In this document: positions 2,709-64,000 of the stretch, one piece after another
Layout of the letters: every line of letters begins with the position of its first letter
Position numbering within the stretch: position 1 is the first letter of the stretch
Assembly (NCBI GenBank): GCA_021786095.1
Contig: JAJYNX010000002.1
Coordinates: forward strand, 62,001-126,000
Direction: 5' to 3'
Length of the DNA stretch: 64,000 nt
DNA from: Actinomycetes bacterium
GTDB lineage: Bacteria; Actinomycetota; Acidimicrobiia; Acidimicrobiales; RAAP-2
Notes under the pieces: generated by a model
Told to the model about the DNA's origin: nothing
Database searches by the model: none
The model's input: only the letters and a program-made list of their open reading frames with translations
Position numbers and translations under genes: made by a program

Positions 2709-3664
2709 CGCGTCGGGCACGGCTGCTCGACGCGGCGCTCGAGGCGAGCGTCGTGGGCAGCTTCTCGCGAGTCGGCTACGACGTGCGTCGTCGGCTCGAC
2801 CACTGGGAGCCGCTGACGCCGCGACCGGGCGCCACGGCCCTGGTCACCGGTGCGACGTCGGGGATCGGCCTCGCCGTGGCGATCGGCCTGGCTCGCCTGG
2901 GCTTCGCCGTGCGTTTCGTGGGTCGCCACGAGGATCGCGCCCGCCGCGCGCGTGAGCGCATCGTGGCGGCCAGCGCCAACTCCGACGTGGACTACGTCCT
3001 GGCGGACCTGACCGAGCTCGCGTCGGTGCGCGAGGCCGCCGCGTGGGTCAACTCGCGTGTCGGGCGCCTCGACGTGCTGGTGCACAACGCCGGCGCCATC
3101 ACGCCGACCCGCACGCTCAGCGGCGCGGGGGTCGAGGTGACCGTCGCCGCCCAGCTGCTCGGTCCCTTCCTGCTCACTCGCGAGCTCGACGGGGTCCTGT
3201 CCCGCGGAGACCCCGGACGGGTGGTGACGGTCTCCTCGGGGGGGCTCTACACCCAGCGTTTCGATCTGGAGGCCCTCGAGGACGATCGGGGGGAGTACGA
3301 CGGCGTCGCCCAGTACGCGCGGGTCAAGCGCGCCCAAGTGGTGCTCACCCGCGAGTGGGCCCGTCGGTTCGACCCCGCTCGGGTGGTGGCCCACGCCATG
3401 CACCCGGGCTGGGTCGACACGCCGGGGATGCGCGAGGCCCTGCCGGGCTTCTCGCGGGTGATGGGCCCGTGGCTGCGCCCACCCGACCAGGGGGCCGACA
3501 CGGTCCTGTGGCTGGCCAGCTCGTCGGTGGCGCGAGCCAGCAGTGGCGACCTGTGGCACGATCGCCGTCGCCGCCACGAGCACGCCGTTCCCTGGACTCG
3601 CTCCCGCGACCCGCTGGGCGATCAGGTGAATCTCTGGGAGTGGTGCCGCGCTCGCGTCGAGTGA
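2705..3664 (+). CDS. Short-chain dehydrogenase/reductase (DHRS12-like)
   Basis: The protein has 319 residues and a GTG start overlapping the SRPBCC stop (GTGA). It has a complete classical SDR core: cofactor loop TGATSGIG at residues 48-55, HNAG at 127-130, the catalytic serine in VSSGG near 177, and YxxxK as YARVK at 204-208. A 40-residue N-terminal extension (F-S-x-V-G-Y-x-x-R-R-x-L-x-x-W) before the Rossmann fold is typical of the DHRS12-like subgroup. An NAD(P)-dependent oxidation or reduction of a lipid or alcohol is likely, but the substrate is not known. Confidence 0.85.
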   Translation: MTRRARLLDAALEASVVGSFSRVGYDVRRRLDHWEPLTPRPGATALVTGATSGIGLAVAIGLARLGFAVRFVGRHEDRARRARERIVAASANSDVDYVLADLTELASVREAAAWVNSRVGRLDVLVHNAGAITPTRTLSGAGVEVTVAAQLLGPFLLTRELDGVLSRGDPGRVVTVSSGGLYTQRFDLEALEDDRGEYDGVAQYARVKRAQVVLTREWARRFDPARVVAHAMHPGWVDTPGMREALPGFSRVMGPWLRPPDQGADTVLWLASSSVARASSGDLWHDRRRRHEHAVPWTRSRDPLGDQVNLWEWCRARVE

Positions 3665-10782: not shown

Positions 10783-12110
10783 TGAGCGTGGCCGTGCGCT
10801 TCGGCACGGACGGCATCCGCGGTCGCGCCGAGGGCGAGATCACGGTCGACCTCGCCTACCGGCTGGGTCGCGCCGTGGCCGAGGTCTTCGACCGGCCGGC
10901 CTTCGTGGGCCACGACACGCGCGAGAGCTCGCCCCCCCTGGCGGCGGCCGTGCTGGCCGGACTGGCCGCCGGCGGCGCGATCGGGGTGAACCTCGGGGTC
11001 CTGCCGACGCCCGGCGTGGCGGTGGTGGCGCGCGAGCGCGCGGGAGTGGGCGTCGTGGTCTCGGCCTCGCACAACCCCTACTACGACAACGGGCTGAAGG
11101 TCCTCGGTCCGGGCGGGGCCAAGCTGGACCTCGCGACCGAGGCGGCGCTGGCCGACGCGCTGGCCCGCGTCGCGGCGCCGGTAGCGGCGTGGCCCGACTC
11201 ACCCGCCGTGGACCCCACGGGCGAGCTGCTCTACGTGGAGCACCTGCGCGCCCTGGTGCCCGACGACCTCTCGTCGCTGCGTCTGGTGGTGGACTGCGCC
11301 AACGGGGCCGCGAGCCACGTCGCGCACGAACTGTTCGTGGCCACTGGCGCGAGCGTCACGATGCTGCACGACCGGCCCGACGGGCGCAACATCAACGCGG
11401 GCTGCGGGTCCACCGACGTGCGCGACCTCGTGGCGGCGGTGGTGGCCTCGGGTGCCGACCTGGGCCTCGCCTTCGACGGCGACGCCGACCGGCTGGTGGC
11501 CGTGGACGCGCTCGGCACGGTGCGCGACGGCGACGACCTCATGGTGCTCTTCGCCCGCGACATGGCCGCGCGCGAGGTGTTGCGGGGCGGGGTCGTCGTG
11601 ACCTCCATGAGCAACCTGGGCCTACGCCGTGCGCTGGACGCGACGGGAGTGCAGGTCGTGGAGACCGACGTCGGGGACCGTCACGTGCTGGCCGAGATCG
11701 AGGAGCGGTCCTGGAACTTCGGCGGCGAGCAGTCGGGCCACCTCATCTTCGCCGACCTGGCGCCGACCGGTGACGGACTGCTGACCGGGCTGTTGCTGGC
11801 GGAGCTGGTGACCCGGCGCGGACCGCTCGACGAGCAGGCGCGTGACGCCTGGACGCGCGTGCCCCAGGCGCTGGTCAACGTGGCGCGCGAGGAGTACGAG
11901 GACGCGGCCGTGCGCCGCCTGTTCGACGAGGTGCGCGCGCGCTTCGCGGTGGGGCCCGACGACTGGCGCCTGGTGGTGCGCCCGTCGGGCACCGAGCCGG
12001 TGGTGCGTGTGATGGTCGAGGCGCTCGAGGCGGGACTGGTCGAGGAGTTCGCCGCGGCGCTGCGCGAGCGTTTCGCGCCGCCTCGGGGGGGCGATTCACC
12101 TCCCGAGTAG
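10782..12110 (+). CDS. glmM: Phosphoglucosamine mutase
   Basis: GlmM converts glucosamine-6-phosphate to glucosamine-1-phosphate for UDP-GlcNAc and peptidoglycan. The 442-residue protein opens FGTDGIRGRAEG, has the phosphoserine loop SASHNP with Ser96 as the phosphorylated residue, the Mg-binding DGDADR, a sugar loop at GGEQSGH, and the phosphate-binding RPSGTEPVVRVMVEA near the end. It follows rpsI with a TAATG junction and is followed by glmS, which makes its substrate. Confidence 0.96.
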   Translation: MSVAVRFGTDGIRGRAEGEITVDLAYRLGRAVAEVFDRPAFVGHDTRESSPPLAAAVLAGLAAGGAIGVNLGVLPTPGVAVVARERAGVGVVVSASHNPYYDNGLKVLGPGGAKLDLATEAALADALARVAAPVAAWPDSPAVDPTGELLYVEHLRALVPDDLSSLRLVVDCANGAASHVAHELFVATGASVTMLHDRPDGRNINAGCGSTDVRDLVAAVVASGADLGLAFDGDADRLVAVDALGTVRDGDDLMVLFARDMAAREVLRGGVVVTSMSNLGLRRALDATGVQVVETDVGDRHVLAEIEERSWNFGGEQSGHLIFADLAPTGDGLLTGLLLAELVTRRGPLDEQARDAWTRVPQALVNVAREEYEDAAVRRLFDEVRARFAVGPDDWRLVVRPSGTEPVVRVMVEALEAGLVEEFAAALRERFAPPRGGDSPPE

Positions 12111-12119
12111 GCTGAGCCC
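12108..12119 (+). promoter_or_regulatory. -10 element (TAGGCT) predicting a leaderless glmS mRNA
   Basis: TAGGCT at 12108-12113 is 6 nt from the ATG at 12120 and reuses the glmM stop codon TAG as its first three bases. There is no Shine-Dalgarno sequence. A glmS ribozyme is not expected in this phylum, and the space is too short to hold one. Confidence 0.6.
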
Positions 12120-13961
12120 ATGTGCGGCATCATCGGGGTGGTCGGGGCCTCCGACACCCTGGACGTGCTGCTGGAGGGCCTGGAGCGGCTCGAGTACCGC
12201 GGGTACGACTCGGCGGGCGTCGCGCTGGTGCGCCCGGGTGAGACCTGGCGCCGGCGGGCCGCGGCGGGGGTGGAGTCGGTGGCCGCGCTGCGAGTGGCTT
12301 GCGCCGACGCGCCGGGCGACGCGCGCACGGGGATCGGCCATACGCGCTGGGCCACCCACGGGGCGCCCGAGGCGGTCAACGCCCATCCGCACCTGGACTG
12401 CACCGGGCGCGTGGCGGTCATCCATAACGGCATCATCGAGAACCACGCGGCGGTCCGCGAGGAGCTCGAGGCGCGCGGCCACCACTTCGCCTCGGTCACC
12501 GACTCCGAGGTCCTCGCTCACTTGGTCGAGGAGTCGCGAGCCGCGGGACTCGACCTGCTCGACGCGGTGCGCGCGAGCCTGGCGGTGGTGCACGGGGCCT
12601 TCGCCGTGGCCGCGGTCGACGCCGACGAGCCCGAGGTGATCGTCGCCGCTCGGCGGGTCTCGCCGCTCATCGTGGGCACGGCGCCGGGGGTGAGCTACCT
12701 GGCGAGCGACGTACCGGCGATCCTGGGCCGCGCGACGACTTTCTACGCCGTCAACGACGACGAGGTCGTGCGCCTGGGGCCCGAGGGGTTCCGGGCGGTG
12801 GACCTCGAGGGGTCGCCGATCCGGCTGCGTCAGCTGGCGATCGACTGGGACCTGGAGACGGCGGAGAAGGGGGGGCACGATGACTTCCTCTCCAAGGAGA
12901 TCGCCGAGCAGCCCGAGGCGTTGCGCGCCACGCTGGCCGACCGCCGCCGCCGCGACGGCGCCATCACCTTCGACGAGCTGCGCATCGACGACGACGAGCT
13001 GGTGGCGGTGCGCCGCGTCGTGCTCGTCGCCGCGGGCACCTCGCACCACGCCGCCCTGGTCGCCAAGTACGCGATCGAGCGCTGGGCGCGGCTGAGCGTG
13101 GAGGTGGACATCGCCAGCGAGTACCGCTACCGCGACCCGATCGTCGAGATCGGCACGTTGGTGATCGCGGTGTCCCAGAGCGGTGAGACGATCGACACGA
13201 TCCAGGCGGCGCGCGAGGCGCGTCGTCGGGGCGCGCGCGTCGTCGCGGTGTCCAACATCGTGGACTCGTCGCTGGCGCGCGAGGCCGACGCCGTGATCTA
13301 CACGCGCGCGGGCCTGGAGGTCTCGGTGGCCTCCACCAAGGCGTTCGTCACCCAGGTGGCGGCGCTGGAGCTGCTGGCGCTGCGCCTGGCCCAGCTGCGC
13401 GCGACCCTGCCGGCCTCGGACGTCGAGGCGCTGTTCCTCGGGCTACGCGCGGTCGCCGATCAGGTGGCCGCGACCCTGGCGCGCCACGACGCGGTGCGCG
13501 ACGTCGCGGCGACTCTCGCCGGCGCGCGCGACTTCTTCTTCCTGGGGCGTCACGTCGGCTTTCCCACCGCCCTCGAGGGGGCCCTCAAACTCAAGGAGCT
13601 CACCTACCGCCACGCCGAGGGCTACCCCGCGGGCGAGCTCAAGCACGGCCCTCTGGCGTTGATCGAGCCCGGCGTGGTGGTGGTCGCGGTGACCACCGAT
13701 CCGGCGCTGCACGCCAAGATGCTCTCCAACCTGGCCGAGGTGAAGGCGCGCGGCGCGACCGTGGTGGCGGTGGCCACCGACGACGACGACTCCGTCGAGG
13801 CGGTCGCGGACTTCGTGCTGCGCGTGCCCGCGACCGAGCCGCTCTTCACCCCGATGGTCGACATCGTGGTGCTCCAGCTCTTCGCCTACGACACCGCCCG
13901 GCTGCTCGGGCGCAACGTGGACCGCCCGCGCAACCTGGCCAAGACCGTGACCGTGGAGTAG
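12120..13961 (+). CDS. glmS: Glutamine-fructose-6-phosphate aminotransferase (isomerizing)
   Basis: GlmS makes glucosamine-6-phosphate from fructose-6-phosphate and glutamine, the first step to UDP-GlcNAc. The 613-residue protein begins MCGIIGVVG: Cys2, exposed after Met removal, is the glutaminase nucleophile. The N-terminal Ntn domain includes GIGHTRWATHGAPEAVNAHPH and HNGIIEN. Two SIS domains follow (SQSGETIDTIQAAREA and GRHVGFPTALEGALKLKELTY), and the end is the family signature RPRNLAKTVTVE. Confidence 0.97.
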   Translation: MCGIIGVVGASDTLDVLLEGLERLEYRGYDSAGVALVRPGETWRRRAAAGVESVAALRVACADAPGDARTGIGHTRWATHGAPEAVNAHPHLDCTGRVAVIHNGIIENHAAVREELEARGHHFASVTDSEVLAHLVEESRAAGLDLLDAVRASLAVVHGAFAVAAVDADEPEVIVAARRVSPLIVGTAPGVSYLASDVPAILGRATTFYAVNDDEVVRLGPEGFRAVDLEGSPIRLRQLAIDWDLETAEKGGHDDFLSKEIAEQPEALRATLADRRRRDGAITFDELRIDDDELVAVRRVVLVAAGTSHHAALVAKYAIERWARLSVEVDIASEYRYRDPIVEIGTLVIAVSQSGETIDTIQAAREARRRGARVVAVSNIVDSSLAREADAVIYTRAGLEVSVASTKAFVTQVAALELLALRLAQLRATLPASDVEALFLGLRAVADQVAATLARHDAVRDVAATLAGARDFFFLGRHVGFPTALEGALKLKELTYRHAEGYPAGELKHGPLALIEPGVVVVAVTTDPALHAKMLSNLAEVKARGATVVAVATDDDDSVEAVADFVLRVPATEPLFTPMVDIVVLQLFAYDTARLLGRNVDRPRNLAKTVTVE

Positions 13962-13966
13962 TCGGG

Positions 13967-14014
13967 TCGTGGAGTCGTGGAGTTGTGGAGTCGTGGAGTT
14001 GTGGAGTCGTGGAG
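13967..14014 (+). repeat. Six tandem copies of an 8-bp unit between glmS and acpS
   Basis: The unit TCGTGGAG is repeated six times with no gaps (48 bp), copies 3 and 5 reading TTGTGGAG. The end of glmS at 13951-13958 (CCGTGGAG) resembles another degenerate copy. The array abuts the 132-bp duplication that begins at 14013. An 8-bp unit is prone to slippage, and any translation begun inside it (GTG 13977 is in frame with acpS) would change frame with copy number. Confidence 0.85.
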
Positions 14015-14276
14015 CCGTGAGGTAGTGATGGGTGTCGTGGGGGTGGGGGTGGACGTCGTGGACGTGGAGCGCTTCGCGGCGGTGCTGGCGCGTCGTGCGC
14101 GCTTCGCCCAGCGGGTCTTCACCCCCGGTGAGCGTGCCGACACCAGCCGTGAGGTAGCGATGGGCGTCGTGGGGGTGGGGGTGGACGTCGTGGACGTGGA
14201 GCGCTTCGCGGCGGTGCTGGCGCGTCGTGCGCGCTTCGCCCAGCGGGTCTTCACCCCCGGTGAGCGTGCCGACACC
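14013..14276 (+). repeat. 132-bp perfect-length tandem duplication of the acpS 5' end
   Basis: Copy 1 is 14013-14144 and copy 2 is 14145-14276. They abut exactly and differ at only two positions (14026/14158 and 14033/14165, both T in copy 1 and C in copy 2). Each contains a ribosome-binding site, an ATG and the first 39 codons of acpS. Because 132 is divisible by 3 the duplication keeps the frame. Confidence 0.95.
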
Positions 14277-14537
14277 CGTGACGCGCCGGAGCGCCTGGCC
14301 GCGCGCTTCGCGGCCAAGGAGGCGACGATGAAGTGCCTCGGCGTGGGTCTGGGTGCGGTGGGCCTGCACGACGTCGAGGTGCGCCGCGAGCCCAGCGGTG
14401 CCCCCCGCCTGGTCCTGCACGGCGCGGCCGCCGCGCTGGCCCGAGAGCGCGGGGCGCTCTCGTGGCACGTGTCGCTGACCCACACCGCCATCACCGCCGC
14501 GGCGGTGGTGGTCGCCAGCACCGAGACGTCGCCGTGA
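14028..14537 (+). CDS. acpS: Holo-[acyl-carrier-protein] synthase, with an internally duplicated N-terminus
   Basis: AcpS transfers 4'-phosphopantetheine from CoA to a serine of ACP. From the second ATG at 14160 the gene encodes 125 residues, the normal family length, with G-V-G-V-D-V-V-D (metal-binding Asp), [10 protein letters not shown] and the catalytic KEA of [13 protein letters not shown]. An upstream ATG at 14028 with an identical ribosome-binding region (GAGGTAGTG) reads in frame through a second copy of the first 44 codons, predicting a 169-residue form with two N-terminal strands. Both starts look usable. It overlaps alr by 4 bp (GTGA). Confidence 0.88.
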
Positions 14538-15685
14538 GCGCGTCGGGGGCGCACCGACCGGCGTGGGCCGAGATCTCGCGCGGCGCAATCGCCCACAACA
14601 GTGCCGCCCTGACCGCGGTGCTCGGGGCGACCCAGCTCTGCGCGGTGGTGAAGGCCAACGGCTACGGTCACGGCGCGCCCCTGGCGGCGCACGCCGCCCT
14701 GGCCGGCGGCGCGACCTCGCTGGCGGTGGCGATCGTCGACGAGGGGATCGAGCTGCGCGAGGCCGGCGTGTCCGCGCCGATCCTGCTGCTGGCCGAGGTC
14801 TCGGCGGACGCGATTCCCGACGCCCTTCGCCACTCGCTGACCCTCACCGTGGGCTCGCGCGAGGGCGCCCGCGCCGTGGTCGGCGCCGCGCGCGCCCGGG
14901 GCGGGCGGCACCGGGTCCACGTGAAGCTGGACACCGGCATGGGGCGCATGGGTGTGTCGACGGACGAGCTCGACGACGTGATCGACGTCCTCGCCGCCGA
15001 GGAGCACCTCGACCTCGAGGGCCTCTACACGCACCTGTCGGTGGCCGACTCGCTCGACGAGGACGACCAGGCCTTCACCCGGCGCCAGATCGCGCGCTTC
15101 GACGAGGCCGTGGCGCGCCTGGCCGCGCGCGGCGCGTGCCCGCGGGTGCGTCACGTGGCCAACAGCGCCGGGGCCCTGGGATATCCCGCCTCGCGCCAGT
15201 CCCTGGCCCGCGTCGGCCTGGCGCTCTACGGCTACCTGCCGGCGCCCCACCTCGGCCGCGCGCTCGACGACCTCGGCTGGTCCTTGCGTCCCGCGATGAC
15301 GCTGCGCGCTCGAGTGACGGCGGCGCGGCGTCTGGACGCGGGGGAGCGACCCAGTTACGGGCGTCGACGCGAGCTGACGCGGCCGGCCACGGTGGTCACC
15401 GTGCCCTTCGGCTACGCCGACGGCTACGCTCGCCGGCTCTTCGAGGCGGGCGCTTCGGTGCTGATTCGTGGTCGGCGCTTCCCGCTGGCCGGGGTGGTCA
15501 CGATGGACCAGATCCTTGTCGACGTCGGGGACGAGGCGGTGACGCCGGGTGAGGAGGTGGTCCTGCTGGGCGCTCAGGGCGAGGAGTCGATCGACGCCGA
15601 GGAGTGGGCGCGCCGGGCGGGGACGATCACCTGGGAGATCCTGTGCGCCGTCGGGGCGCGGGTGCCGCGCGTGCTCGTGGACTAA
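14534..15685 (+). CDS. alr: Alanine racemase
   Basis: This PLP enzyme makes D-alanine for peptidoglycan. The 383-residue protein has the PLP lysine in [11 protein letters not shown] near residue 38, the TIM-barrel phosphate-binding region with HVANSAG, and the second catalytic residue (Tyr) in [11 protein letters not shown]. Other landmarks are MGRMGVS and the conserved [10 protein letters not shown]. The GTG start overlaps the acpS stop. The acpS-alr pairing is common in actinobacteria. Confidence 0.96.
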
Positions 15686-15691
15686 GTCGGG

Positions 15692-16252
15692 ATGAGTCTC
15701 TCGCACGGGGAGCCGCGGCCGGTGCCCAACGGGCTGGTCGACTGCGTGCGCTGTCGACTCAGTGTCGCGCGCACGCGCGTCGTGGTGGGCGTGGGGCCGG
15801 CCCGAGCTCGCCTGGTCGTGGTGGGCGAGGCGCCGGGCCGCGAGGAGGACGAGGGCGGTGAGCCGTTCGTGGGGCGCAGCGGCCGGCTGCTGATGGCGCT
15901 GCTGGGCGAGATCGGCGTCGCTCGTGAGGACTGCTTCATCACCAACGCCGTGAAGTGCCGCCCTCCCCACAACCGCACGCCGCGCGCCGACGAGATCGCC
16001 GCCTGCCGGGGGTGGCTGGACCAGCAGCTGGTCGGGGACGGCGCGCCGGTCCTGACGGTGGGCGCCGTCGCGGCTCGAGCGGTCTTCGGCGAGCGGGGGT
16101 CCCTGGCGTCGCACCACGGCCGGCTGCGCGACCTCGACGGTCGAGCGGGCCTGGCCACCTACCATCCGGCCGCGGCGTTGCGCGGGGGCCCTAACGTGGT
16201 ACGGGTGATGCGTGAGGATCTCGCGGTGCTGGCCACCGTGGTGGCGCCGTGA
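15692..16252 (+). CDS. Family 4 (iron-sulfur) uracil-DNA glycosylase
   Basis: The 186-residue protein removes uracil from DNA at the start of base-excision repair. The family signature is [23 protein letters not shown] at about residues 48-70. Four cysteines are positioned for a 4Fe-4S cluster: Cys18 and Cys21, one in [11 protein letters not shown] and one in IAACRGWL. A histidine in TYHPAA near the end is the second active-site motif. It lies between alr and tsaE and is probably co-transcribed. Confidence 0.92.
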
Positions 16253-16716
16253 GCTGGCGGTGCCGCTGCACTAGCGCGGCCGACACGGCGGCCGCGGGGG
16301 AGGACTTCGCCGCGGCCCTGGCGCCCGGGGACGTCGTGCTGCTCACCGGTCCGCTGGGTGCCGGCAAGACCACCTTCGTCCAGGGGGTGGCGCGCGGTCT
16401 GGGCGTGAGCGAGCGCGTCACCAGCCCGACCTTCACGATGGTGCGTCCTCACACCTGTCACGGTGGGGCGATCGCCACCCTGTGGCACGCCGACCTCTAC
16501 CGGGTGCGCTCCCTCGACGAGGTCTGGGACCTGGCCTTGGGCGAGCTGGTCGAGGAGTCCGGGGTGGCCCTGGTCGAGTGGGGCGAGCTCGCGGCGTCGG
16601 CCCTCGGGCGCGACGCCTGGACGGTGCACGTCACCGTGCACGACGACGAGGCGCGGGTGCTCGAGGCGGCGGGGGCGCGCACCGACCGTGACGCTCCGGG
16701 TCGGTGGGCCTCGTGA
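16249..16716 (+). CDS. tsaE: tRNA t6A biosynthesis ATPase TsaE
   Basis: TsaE is the ATPase partner of TsaB-TsaD in making N6-threonylcarbamoyl-adenosine at position 37 of ANN-decoding tRNAs. The 155-residue protein carries a Walker A motif, [10 protein letters not shown], near residues 34-43, then [10 protein letters not shown] and a HADLYR motif, all typical. Its GTG start overlaps the glycosylase stop, and its own stop overlaps tsaB. Confidence 0.95.
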
Positions 16717-17402
16717 ACGTGCTGGTGATCGAGACGGCCACGCGGGCCTGCGCGGTGGCCCTGGTCGTGGGCGACGCCGACCCGGTCACGGCGCTGCTCG
16801 ACGAGGACCGGCGCCACACCGAGGTCCTGGTCGAGGGGGTCGGGGCGCTGCTCACGACGGCGGGGCTGCGCGCGCGCGACCTCGACCGCGTGGTGGTGGA
16901 CCAGGGCCCCGGGCTCTTCACCGGGCTGCGCGTCGGGGTGGCCACGGCCAACGCCCTGGCCCAGGCGGTGGGCTGTCAGCTGGTCGCCGTGTCCTCGCTC
17001 GAGCTGCTGGCCCGCGGCGCGCACGCCCGGGGCGCGCGCGGGACTCTCGTGAGCTGCGTCGACGCGCGCCGCGGCGAGGTCTTCGTCCAGACCTTCACGC
17101 TGGCCGACGACGCCGTGACGGCGATCACCGCGCCGACGGTGGCGCGCCCGCGCGCCGTGGCGATCGAGTGGGCCACCAACGGCGCGCCGGTCACCTTTAC
17201 CGGCGACGGCGTGGCGCGTTACGCCGAGGACCTGGGCGCCGTGCCCCAGGCGGCGATCGTCGAGCAGCGGGTGCCGCCCCCCGCCCAGGGAGTCGCCCTG
17301 GGCGCCACCCGCGAGCCGGTCGACGTTGTGCACCCGCTCTACCTGCGCGACGCCGACGCGGTCGCGAACTTCACGACGCGCGACGGCGCCACGCCGCGGT
17401 GA
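16713..17402 (+). CDS. tsaB: tRNA t6A biosynthesis protein TsaB
   Basis: TsaB is an ASKHA-fold partner that dimerises with TsaD. The 229-residue protein starts [20 protein letters not shown] and contains VVDQGPGLFTGLRVGVATANALAQ, the family core. GTG at 16713 is preferred over GTG 16704 because it forms the 4-bp coupling with the tsaE stop used throughout this operon. It is followed by rimI with another GTGA overlap. Confidence 0.94.
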   Translation: MNVLVIETATRACAVALVVGDADPVTALLDEDRRHTEVLVEGVGALLTTAGLRARDLDRVVVDQGPGLFTGLRVGVATANALAQAVGCQLVAVSSLELLARGAHARGARGTLVSCVDARRGEVFVQTFTLADDAVTAITAPTVARPRAVAIEWATNGAPVTFTGDGVARYAEDLGAVPQAAIVEQRVPPPAQGVALGATREPVDVVHPLYLRDADAVANFTTRDGATPR

Positions 17403-17917
17403 GCGGCGAGGTGCTCGGCGAGGTGATCGACGTCGTGGGCGGCGACTGGATCATTCGCCTGGTCGAGCGCCGCGACGTGCGCGAGCTGCTGGCGATCGAG
17501 CAGGCGCAGTTCCCCGAGCCCTGGAGTCGGGGCATGCTCCTGGACGAGATCACCAACGTCGCCACGCGCCGCTACACGGTGGCGGTGCGTGAGGGGCGAA
17601 TCCTGGGCTACCTCGGGGTGATGTTCGTGCTCGACGAGCTGCACGTCAACACACTGGGCGTGGCGCCGGGCGAGGAAGGCCGCGGGGTGGCGACCTCGCT
17701 GCTGGACGACGCCTGGGCCGACGCCGCGGCGCGCGGGATCACGCGCGCCACCCTCGAGGTGGCCGTCTCCAACGAGCGCGCCCAACGCCTCTACTGGCGC
17801 TACGGCTTCGCCCCGGTGGGGGTGCGTCGGCGCTACTACGAGCGCACCGGTGAGGACGCGCTGGTGATGTGGGCCGACCTCGCGACCCGCCTCGCGGACC
17901 GGCCGCCCGAGGCGTGA
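17399..17917 (+). CDS. rimI: Ribosomal-protein-alanine N-acetyltransferase
   Basis: The 172-residue GNAT acetyltransferase acts on N-terminal alanine, as RimI does on S18. It begins the GNAT fold near residue 20 (IRLVERRDVRELLAIEQAQFPEPWSRGMLL). The acetyl-CoA loop is APGEEGRGVATSLL (the R/Q-x-x-G-x-G/A pattern), and EVAVSNERAQRLYWRYGF supplies the C-terminal arm. A rimI between tsaB and tsaD is a conserved arrangement. Confidence 0.93.
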   Translation: MSGEVLGEVIDVVGGDWIIRLVERRDVRELLAIEQAQFPEPWSRGMLLDEITNVATRRYTVAVREGRILGYLGVMFVLDELHVNTLGVAPGEEGRGVATSLLDDAWADAAARGITRATLEVAVSNERAQRLYWRYGFAPVGVRRRYYERTGEDALVMWADLATRLADRPPEA

Positions 17918-46864: not shown

Positions 46865-46924
46865 GTGGTGGGGATCGCAGTGAGAGGTGTCGCAGTGGTG
46901 GGGATCGCAGTGAGAGGTGTCGCA
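46865..46924 (+). repeat. 30-bp tandem duplication upstream of sucC
   Basis: Two identical 30-bp units (46865-46894 and 46895-46924), each beginning GTGGTGGGGATCGCAGTGAG and ending AGGTGTCGCA, are followed by the first three bases of a third. They fill the gap between the B12-binding gene and sucC, just before the sucC leader. Perfect identity points to a recent duplication. Confidence 0.92.
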
Positions 46925-46959
46925 GTGCAGTCAGTGGGGACAACGGAAAGCAGACGGTC

Positions 46960-48102
46960 ATGGATCTCTTCGAGTATCAGGGCAAGCAGTACTTCGCGCG
47001 CTACGGGATCGCCGTGTCGCCCGGCGGCGTCGCCGACACGGTGGACGAGGCGCTGGCGGTCGCCGAGCGCGTCGGCTACCCCGTGGTCGTCAAGGCCCAG
47101 GTCAAGGTGGGCGGGCGCGGCAAGGCCGGAGGGGTCAAGCTCGCGGCGAACGCCGACGAGGTGCGCACTCACGCCGGCACCATCCTCGGGCTGGACATCA
47201 AGGGCCACGTCGTGCGACGGCTGTGGATCGAGCGCGCCAGCGACATCGCCCGCGAGTACTACGCCTCGTTCACGCTGGACCGACCCAACAAGGTGCACCT
47301 GGGGATGCTGAGCGCTCAGGGTGGCGTCGAGATCGAGACGGTGGCCCAGGAGGATCCCGACGCCATCGCGATGCTCTCGATCGATCCCGTGCGCGGACTC
47401 GACCTGGCCACCGCCCGGCGTTGGGTGGCCGAGGCGGGACTCGACGAGGAGGCGCGCGCCCAGGCGGCCGAACTGCTGGTGAAGCTCTACGAGTGCTACA
47501 CCAAGGGTGACTGCGACCTGGCCGAGATCAATCCCCTGATCCTGACGACTGCGGGCACGGTCCACGCGCTCGACGCCAAGGTCACCCTGGACGAGAACGC
47601 CAGTTACCGCCACCCCGAGTGGGACGAGTTCCGCGCCACCGAGACCGAGGACCCCCGCGAGCGCCGGGCCAAGGAGAAGGGACTGAACTACATCGGCCTC
47701 GACGGCGACGTCGGCATCATTGCCAACGGCGCGGGCTTGGCGATGTCCACCCTGGACGTCGTGAACCAGGTCGGCGGCTCCGCCGCCAACTTCCTCGACA
47801 TCGGCGGCGGCGCCAACGCCGACGTGATGGCCGCCGCCCTCGAGTTGATCAACTCGGACCCGAAGGTCAAGGTCATCTTCGTCAACGTCTTCGGCGGCAT
47901 CACGCGCGTCGACGAGGTGGCCACCGGCGTGCTCGAGGCGCTCGGACGTGTGACGATCACCTCGCCCATCGTGCTGCGTCTCGACGGCACGAACGCCGTG
48001 GAGGGGCGCGCCATCCTGGCGCCGCACCTCAGCGACACCCTGATCACCGAACCCACCATGCTGGACGCCGCCCGCCGGGCCGTGGCCATCGCGAACGCCT
48101 GA
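46960..48102 (+). CDS. sucC: Succinate-CoA ligase (ADP/GDP-forming) subunit beta
   Basis: The 380-residue beta subunit has the ATP-grasp N-terminus (MDLFEYQGKQYFARYGIAVSPGGV), VVKAQVKVGGRGKAGGVKLA, the metal-binding DLAEINPLI, GLNYIGLDGDVGIIANGAGLAMSTLDVV, and NVFGGITRVDEVATG. ATG 46960 follows GGAAAGCAGACGGTC. It is followed 9 bp later by sucD. The complex makes ATP (or GTP) from succinyl-CoA in the TCA cycle. Confidence 0.97.
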   Translation: MDLFEYQGKQYFARYGIAVSPGGVADTVDEALAVAERVGYPVVVKAQVKVGGRGKAGGVKLAANADEVRTHAGTILGLDIKGHVVRRLWIERASDIAREYYASFTLDRPNKVHLGMLSAQGGVEIETVAQEDPDAIAMLSIDPVRGLDLATARRWVAEAGLDEEARAQAAELLVKLYECYTKGDCDLAEINPLILTTAGTVHALDAKVTLDENASYRHPEWDEFRATETEDPRERRAKEKGLNYIGLDGDVGIIANGAGLAMSTLDVVNQVGGSAANFLDIGGGANADVMAAALELINSDPKVKVIFVNVFGGITRVDEVATGVLEALGRVTITSPIVLRLDGTNAVEGRAILAPHLSDTLITEPTMLDAARRAVAIANA

Positions 48103-60596: not shown

Positions 60597-61412
60597 TTAG
60601 AAGAGCTTGTAGTCGGTGAGGACGCCCGAGGCGACCAGTCGCACGTAGACGTCGGTGAGCGCCACGAAGATCAGCGAGGCCCACGCGAAGTTCATGTGCT
60701 TGGCGTTGAGGGGGCTGACGAACTGCCAGAAGCGTGCGCGCAGCTTGTGCGCCGAGAGGCGCCGCGAGCCGCCGCCGAAGAGATGGCGACAGGCGTGGCA
60801 GGTGAGCGAGTACATCCACAGCAGGGCCGCGTTCACCACGAGCACGACCGTGCCCACCGTGACGCCCCACCCGAGGCCCGGCTGCTGGAAGGCGCGCACC
60901 GCGTCGTAGGTCAACATGATGTTGAACAGCACGCCGAAGTAGAAGAACCAGCGGTGCACGTTCTGCATGACGAGGGGGAAGCGTGTCTCACCCGAGTACG
61001 TCGGGTGCGCGTCGGCGACGGCGCACGACGGTGGCGACCACCAGAACGCGCGGTAGTAGCTGCGCCGGTAGTAGTAGCACGAGAGGCGAAAGCCCAACGG
61101 GAAGATGAGGATCAGCAGCGCCGGCGACAGGGGCCAGCCGTGCAGGATGAAGCCGGCCGACGAGCCCGGTACGCAGTGATCGGTCAGGCACGGGGAGTAG
61201 AAGGGGCTGATCAGATCACGGTGGACGTTGGCGCCGACGAAGTAGTTCTTGTTCTGGAAGGCGGCCCACGTCGAGTAGATGACGAACGCCGTCAGCACGG
61301 ACACGGTGGCGACCGGCTGGATCCACCAGCGGTCCGTGCGCAGCGTGGGGGCGTCGGGACCGCCGCGCGTGCCCCCTAGGACAACCTTGGTCGAAGTTTC
61401 CAGCGTCGCCAC
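60597..61412 (-). CDS. Succinate dehydrogenase membrane anchor (Rv0249c-like SdhC)
   Basis: The 271-residue protein has about five membrane segments with no similarity to the short SdhC/SdhD pairs. It matches the single-chain anchor of mycobacterial Sdh1 in length and layout (RWWIQPVATVSVLTAFVIYSTWAAF, YYYRRSYYRAFWWSPPSC, MQNVHRWFFYFGVLFNIMLTYDAVRAF, CHACRHLF). It is the first gene of the operon. The start is GTG 61412 after GAGGAGACGAA. Conserved histidines near residues 150-165 and 225-230 are candidate haem or quinone contacts. Confidence 0.85.
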   Translation of the reverse strand: MATLETSTKVVLGGTRGGPDAPTLRTDRWWIQPVATVSVLTAFVIYSTWAAFQNKNYFVGANVHRDLISPFYSPCLTDHCVPGSSAGFILHGWPLSPALLILIFPLGFRLSCYYYRRSYYRAFWWSPPSCAVADAHPTYSGETRFPLVMQNVHRWFFYFGVLFNIMLTYDAVRAFQQPGLGWGVTVGTVVLVVNAALLWMYSLTCHACRHLFGGGSRRLSAHKLRARFWQFVSPLNAKHMNFAWASLIFVALTDVYVRLVASGVLTDYKLF

Positions 61413-61457
61413 TTCGTCTCCTCGCTCACTCGTACTGGACGCGAGGCTACCCTCGCT

Positions 61458-61493
61458 CTGGCGTGACGACCCCCATACTAGGCAGCACGCCAG
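61458..61493 (-). promoter_or_regulatory. Inverted repeat around the sdh operon -10
   Basis: CTGGCGTG (61458-61465) and CACGCCAG (61486-61493) form a perfect 8-bp inverted repeat with a 20-nt spacer. TAGTAT (complement of 61475-61480), the likely -10 of sdhC, lies between the arms. A regulator bound to both arms would occlude the promoter. The regulator is not identified. Confidence 0.55.
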
Positions 61494-61522
61494 TGGTCCT
61501 TTGAACGACGGCAGTGTCCAAT

Positions 61523-61567
61523 GACCCAACCTCGACCGACCCAACCTCGACCGACCCAACCTCGAGT
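61523..61567 (+). repeat. Three tandem copies of a 15-bp unit
   Basis: The unit GACCCAACCTCGACC occurs at 61523-61537 and 61538-61552 and, with two terminal changes, at 61553-61567. It lies between the sdh promoter and the LysR gene stop. No coding role is visible. Confidence 0.85.
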
Positions 61568-61612
61568 CCACTCGTGTGGCGGTGCCCGACCCAGTCCATC
61601 GCGCGGCCTCCG

Positions 61613-63209: not shown

Positions 63210-63380
63210 CGGTACTCGACGGAGGTGGTTGGACAGGAGTGACGTTGCGCGCGGCCGCGGGGGCACTGGTCCCGGCGGGCGGCGCGACGAAGGGTGTAGG
63301 GGTTGCGTCGGGTGAGCCACGGCCACCAGGGGCGCCTCGGTGAAGGTCCGATGACAACGAGAGCAACAGAAAGGCACACA

Positions 63381-64000
63381 ATGAAGAGATTGATTCACAG
63401 CACGATCGCCGGAGCGCTCGTCCTAGGGGGCGTGACGCTCGTCGGAGTAGGCGTGGCGTCAGCCCAGGGCACGACCACGACGACGACGGCGCCGACCACG
63501 ACGACGACGGCGCCCCCGTACGCGAGCGGCAACAAGTTCATGTCGTTCACGGTGGAGACCGTCGCGGGCGGCGGGAGCCCCGCGGGGTCCGTCTTCCCAG
63601 GCGCGTGCGCCCTGGAGAACAACTTCGGCCTCGGCGCGATGGTCGTCTTTCGTATGTGGGGCATGGACTCCGTGAGTGGCACCCCGCTGGTCGGCGCGCC
63701 GGTGGCGAACCCCAACGTGTCGAGCGTCACGATCAATGGGCTGCCGGGCGTCTCGCCGGCCCCGACCATGAGCTACTCGACCAGGGACGGGTACTGGACC
63801 TACGGCTGGAAGACGTCGTCCGCCACGCCGACCGGCACGGTGGCCTACACGGTCACGGTGACGCTCGTTCCGAAGGCGGCCGTCTACAAGACCGCGTACA
63901 AGAACGTCGTCAAGATCATCAAGGGCAAGAGGGTCATGCGGCGAGTCGCGTACAAGAAGCTGGTCTCGCCGGCCATTCCCGCGAAGAGTTACACCTTCGT
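63381..64000 (+). CDS. Secreted protein with Thr-rich linker (partial, runs off the window)
   Basis: An ATG at 63381 (GAAAGGCACACA upstream) opens a frame with no stop to the end of the window (206 codons). It has a signal peptide (MKRLIHSTIAGALVLGGVTL, then VGVGVASAQG), a threonine-alanine-proline linker (TTTTTTAPTTTTTAPP), a domain with SFTVETVAGGGSPAGSVFPGACALENNFGLGAMVVFRMWG, and near the edge a lysine-rich segment (KNVVKIIKGKRVMRRVAYKK). The family is not recognised. It may be a surface or biofilm-associated protein. Confidence 0.8.
   Translation, partial: MKRLIHSTIAGALVLGGVTLVGVGVASAQGTTTTTTAPTTTTTAPPYASGNKFMSFTVETVAGGGSPAGSVFPGACALENNFGLGAMVVFRMWGMDSVSGTPLVGAPVANPNVSSVTINGLPGVSPAPTMSYSTRDGYWTYGWKTSSATPTGTVAYTVTVTLVPKAAVYKTAYKNVVKIIKGKRVMRRVAYKKLVSPAIPAKSYTF

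Follow-up and report, generated by a model that had tools for sequence, protein, structure and literature searches.

Does a short repeat array that stands directly ahead of a doubled gene start act as a switch, or is it the trace of an accident of replication? The question is raised by the start of acpS in the window, by which we mean the whole stretch of 64,000 nucleotides analysed here, part of contig C29 in a draft genome of 2.1 Mb in 117 contigs. The initial annotation saw in this arrangement ongoing and possibly phase-variable change at an essential lipid-synthesis gene. Our analysis leads us to favor, at a probability of roughly 0.7, a model in which a recent, near-neutral and species-specific pair of replication-slippage events altered the glmS/acpS operon junction with no switching of the reading frame.

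An array and a duplication ahead of acpS

The genes of this locus follow one another in the order glmS, acpS and alr (Table 1), and the start of alr overlaps the acpS stop. A search of the genome placed both acpS matches at the locus described here, which is probably the sole acpS of the genome. The upstream ORF, which we take to be glmS, has a tail that reads ...ACCGTGGAGTAG, and the first 8-bp-like unit falls within its final codons. Six good units, five of GTGGAGTN and one of GTGGAGCC, are flanked by degenerate ones that reach into those final codons on one side and into the ribosome-binding site of copy 1 on the other. Tandem Repeats Finder describes the array as a repeat of period 8 with 8.5 copies (13952-14019), and the predicted secondary structure of the array is no different from that of shuffled sequence. 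The array contains two GTG codons, at 13977 and 14001, that share the acpS frame, as the initial annotation had indicated for one such codon, and that would give proteins of 186 and 178 residues, respectively, 17 or 9 residues beyond the 169-residue form.

Table 1. Positions, in window coordinates, of the features at the glmS/acpS/alr locus.
Feature	Position	Strand	Remarks
glmS (glutamine--fructose-6-phosphate aminotransferase)	12120..13961	+	ORF, upstream gene; Pfam SIS and GATase_6; stop at 13959-13961
8-bp array	13953..14024	+	six units at 13969-14016; degenerate units before (13953, 13961) and after (14017)
Copy 1 of the 132-bp duplication	14013..14144	+	T in place of the sister species' C at 14026 and 14033
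SD-like GAGG (14019-14022), 5-nt spacer, ATG1 (14028-14030)	14019..14030	+	start of the 169-residue form, from sequence
Copy 2 of the 132-bp duplication	14145..14276	+	same base as the sister species at each of the two differing sites
SD-like GAGG (14151-14154), 5-nt spacer, ATG2 (14160-14162)	14151..14162	+	start of the 125-residue form, from sequence
acpS (holo-[acyl-carrier-protein] synthase), core gene	14160..14537	+	Pfam PF01648; solved AcpS relatives, best 2jbz
alr (alanine racemase)	14534..15685	+	next gene; Pfam Ala_racemase_N and _C

The six units adjoin a tandem duplication to which Tandem Repeats Finder assigns a period of 132, 2.0 copies, 98% matches and a score of 514 (14013-14276), the highest among the 31 repeat rows for the window. 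The 15-mer GTGGAGTNGTGGAGT has four matches in the window, all at the array, and none in 100 shuffles; these counts, together with the top repeat score, exclude a chance origin of the array and the 132-bp repeat. The abutting of the two repeats was thus described correctly at the outset, as were the two sites at which the copies differ (14026/14158 and 14033/14165, T/C in each case), and only the word "exact" for the duplication cannot be taken literally. The copies are near-identical, stand head to tail and include the start codon, which makes this a tandem duplication at a stop/start junction. Each of them holds GAGG, the spacer, the ATG and 39 acpS codons, and ATG1 and ATG2 lie in one open frame with a common stop at 14537; the sequence therefore bears out the earlier reading of a repeated ribosome-binding site with in-frame forms of 125 and 169 residues, and a gene caller may choose either start.

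The junction in the sister species and the genus

The nearest relative with a readable junction is a sister species (locus L033, JAJYSU010000008.1), whose genome (G061) and a further genome of the set, G459, give identical matches. Its DNA is 85.5% identical to the window over 11018-14147 and 83.6% over 14147-17510. There glmS ends in ACCGTGGAGTAG, and 5 nt separate it from the ATG of the one acpS copy, to which the 125-residue form from ATG2 corresponds. Both the 8-bp array and the duplication are absent from this junction in L033 and G459, so that a close relative displays the single-copy state.

A wider comparison drew on a genus set of 99 genomes, our own included, in which 91 of the 98 others were examined and seven were left out (four had no match and three had weak matches only). 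The glmS stop overlaps the acpS start in 89 of the 90 junctions read: a script scored 88 of 91, and G442, which its overlap pattern had missed, was added by reading. The script divided its 88 overlaps into 69 of one base and 19 of four bases, a split that is not exact. The sister is the only one of the 90 with a gap, the 5 nt mentioned above. None of the 89 scored same-genus loci has a second match to the acpS N-terminus, and neither the array nor the duplication occurs at any of the 90 same-genus junctions read, so that both are confined to this species in the sample.

The closest genome by glmS, G462 (about 95% of residues; 93-94% DNA identity in the matched piece), has a contig that ends ~210 bp before the glmS stop and carries no acpS, and its junction is not among the 90. 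Because that junction is unreadable, the age of the event, as judged from sequence, is bounded only by the 85%-identical sister. The initial proposal of change at acpS is supported to the extent that the locus has altered after its lineage parted from the sister species, in which acpS is single and the array is absent.

Replication slippage is a known source of short tandem duplications, and the present case resembles it in its head-to-tail, near-identical copies, its repeat-prone junction and its occurrence in one species among those read; it differs in that the copied piece holds a whole translation start and that both neighbours are intact. We envision two steps. The array unit is identical to the final codons of glmS (CGTGGAGT followed by AG) and also to the glmS tail of the sister, and slippage at the former glmS/acpS junction is therefore the probable source of the array: the glmS end, in which an SD-like GGAG also stands ahead of acpS, would have been amplified into the 8-bp array. 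In a second step 132 bp, from the last array-derived unit through acpS codon 39, would have been duplicated in tandem. The 132-bp unit opens with AG and then CCGTGAGGTAG, similar to the glmS tail CCGTGGAGTAG, and the true glmS stop lies outside it. CCGTGA occurs near both ends of the copied piece (14015 and 14276) and is a possible anchor for slippage; against this, slippage at CCGTGA would yield a unit of 129 bp rather than 132, which leaves the exact breakpoint unexplained. The array pattern was found at no other place in a genome-wide search of the species' own genome, and a dispersed repeat family is thereby ruled out.

The glmS gene ends before the six-unit array and is untouched, and copy 2 still starts the normal 125-residue AcpS, with acpS unchanged from ATG2. 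The duplicated segment supplies a ribosome-binding site and an ATG of its own, which leaves both genes intact, and since neither is broken the duplication is probably close to neutral; its fixation without selection is plausible. With the sister as outgroup, the locus illustrates how a tandem duplication can cross the start of an essential gene without breakage, by bringing a start of its own.

A different explanation is that the assembler joined strain variants of the acpS start in tandem. The duplication rests on one draft assembly, the many contigs of which are in keeping with such an error, G462 cannot confirm it, and the two single-base differences between the copies could be strain variants. 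The closeness of these differences means little, because two random differences fall within 7 nt of each other in ~10% of cases. An assembler normally needs a read with the join of copy 1 and copy 2 before it places them in tandem, which counts against an artefact, and the copies share no identical run of more than 111 bp (14034-14144 and 14166-14276), which is shorter than common read lengths, so that ordinary short reads could probably resolve them. We also scanned 20 stretches of the genome plus the window (342,832 bases, ~16% of the genome) for large repeats, and found no other with a score of at least 70 and a unit above 48 bp; the next-longest units measured 48 bp (70% matches) and 30 bp (100%). 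At that score, these bases thus give no sign that large tandem repeats are generally in excess in the assembly. We consider an artefact unlikely.

Tandem repeats at gene boundaries in other genomes

We searched the genomes of the order for N-terminal duplications of this kind. A match was obtained in 339 of 397 genomes, and among the matches listed only our own genome matched from residue 1. Nine other listed matches began between residues 8 and 19, and scanning all nine loci for tandem repeats flagged one, L163, with an 18-bp match 77 nt apart; its upstream member lies at the end of the gene before acpS, which has no match to glmS.

A scan of 189 acpS loci, in which the window itself is not counted and some genomes are present twice, brought to light three cases of a comparable kind at this operon in other genomes. 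In L036 (DAHUZE010000002, an Acidimicrobiaceae MAG), three 27-bp units lie across the glmS stop (~2922-3000), each with a GTG that overlaps the TGA, and each of these GTGs can be read in the acpS frame (144, 135 and 126 residues). In L215, from the same order, a 74-bp unit is repeated across the end of acpS and the start of the next gene (~1146-1310), such that the ribosome-binding site and ATG of that gene are present twice and are identical; the length of this unit is not divisible by three, and a 25-codon ORF runs from the first start and ends on the second ATG. The third, L059 (Mobilicoccus massiliensis), has an 81-bp repeat from the glmS stop in which the acpS start is not copied. All three resemble our locus in being tandem repeats placed where one gene ends and the next begins, and differ from it in the length of their units (27, 74 and 81 bp, against 132) and in having no 8-bp array. 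Because the units and the places differ, we infer that the three repeats arose separately.

These cases raise the possibility that the glmS/acpS junction is a special hot spot, and the counts argue against it. Repeats scoring at least 16 occur at 4 of the 117 glmS/acpS junctions (the loci with glmS read through, 72 of the 189 being omitted from the junction counts because glmS was not found beside acpS) and around the acpS end at 11 of 187; two windows in the glmS interior gave 2/117 and 3/117, and positions further downstream 2/125. Repeats are thus at least as common at the acpS end, which suggests that gene ends in general carry them and that glmS/acpS is not special. Two of the four junction matches, L036 and L059, involve the glmS stop, and the repeats of the other two, L187 and L214, lie within long intergenic regions; among six of the 11 acpS-end matches read by eye, only L215 repeats a start. 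As far as these sequences go, there is nothing unusual about this kind of event, and repeat units do not as a rule keep the frame. In a separate observation, two contigs of G448 (L279 and L280) meet at the glmS tail with 23 bases in common, the assembly breaking just before the junction.

Reading frame and the longer AcpS

In Neisseria and Haemophilus, phase-variable repeats lie in the coding frame or in the promoter, so that their length switches expression, and a frame switch requires a repeat between the start and the gene body. Here, unlike there, both ATG starts lie downstream of the array, and array length cannot therefore alter the acpS frame. When the frame was recomputed with the array set to 1-11 units, the ORF that begins at ATG1, and hence also the one that begins at ATG2, stayed open throughout, with 1 to 6 GTG or TTG starts still in frame upstream, because successive GTGs fall in all three frames. 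The suggestion that array length could switch the frame of acpS is refuted by this result, and phase variation as a frame switch is rejected. At most, array length could alter glmS-acpS spacing and upstream initiation, and spacing may have a weaker effect on expression. Phase variation by array length strikes us as very improbable: the array is prone to slippage and has GTG codons beside a start, but it is absent from the relatives read, and to turn off an acpS that is probably the only one in the genome would presumably be costly. A repeat beside a start is not by itself a phase switch.

What the locus has in common with the simple sequence repeats of Neisseria and Haemophilus is a short repeat array beside a gene start (PMC5084427, PMC2651432). 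A second parallel is offered by the Beggiatoaceae, where heptamer repeats of TAACTGA lie upstream of start codons in 169 sets in one draft genome (PMC4679880). These too are short direct-repeat arrays near start codons, also before essential genes, but they comprise 169 sets of one heptamer, against a single place for the pattern described here. Narrow multi-term searches of open-access papers, which do not establish absence from print, returned no account of phase variation with AcpS or of a junction or start duplication, and further searches yielded general analogues only.

The protein itself is a member of the AcpS family (PF01648) by score, with enzyme activity predicted. The Pfam model gives 66.1 bits for the 125-residue form and 86.3 bits, in two stretches, for the 169-residue form, both above the curated cut-off of 25, and the 44-residue extra piece alone scores 24.6, just under it. 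In an AlphaFold2 model of the 169-residue form the blocks from residue 51 to 160 have pLDDT values of 94-98 and the final block 80, and the model matches the solved AcpS 2wds with an E-value of 8.4e-13 and a TM-score of 0.88 by target length. The first four blocks (residues 1 to 40) have values of 50-60; these are weak evidence of disorder in copy 1, because no other row of the alignment has residues there. The best solved relative, Streptomyces coelicolor AcpS (2jbz), shares enzyme family and fold; its PDB chain matches from residue 21, with 20 residues standing in front of the matched part, and no repeated N-terminus was seen in it.

Because the length of the 132-bp unit is divisible by three and no stop interrupts the frame, initiation at ATG1 would yield a 169-residue AcpS with 44 extra residues as a spare N-terminus. 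Such a protein could be made on purpose and mixed with the short form, and the two starts, with the same SD-like GAGG and 5-nt spacer ahead of each, lend themselves to this reading, as does the weaker predicted 5' structure around ATG1 (-12.5 kcal/mol, versus -24.9 around ATG2), although neither value differs from its shuffles. Yet neither the sister nor any other genus junction read has the arrangement, copy 1 is not confidently folded, chance alone would put a third of such units in frame, and the comparable start duplication of L215 is out of frame. We regard a selected pair of isoforms as improbable and favor slippage that was close to neutral, of which the longer AcpS may be a by-product. 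More speculatively, nested starts, here and separately in L036, could give rise to at least two AcpS isoforms that co-assemble in the trimer, with operon stop/start junctions serving as permissive places in which essential enzymes can try out N-terminal extensions at no cost, an idea that we think unlikely to hold.

Elsewhere in the window, three shorter exact repeats lie at or near the starts of other genes. A 30-bp tandem repeat of 2.1 copies (46865-46927) ends 32 bp before the ATG of a gene at 46960-48102 with Pfam ATP-grasp_2 and Ligase_CoA matches, presumably sucC. A 15-bp repeat of 2.9 copies (61523-61565) occupies the first codons of a minus-strand ORF (60597-61571) and encodes a repeated GRSRL peptide, and a 21-bp repeat (63472-63514) falls in a Thr-rich stretch near the N-terminus of an ORF that begins at 63303 and may encode a secreted protein.
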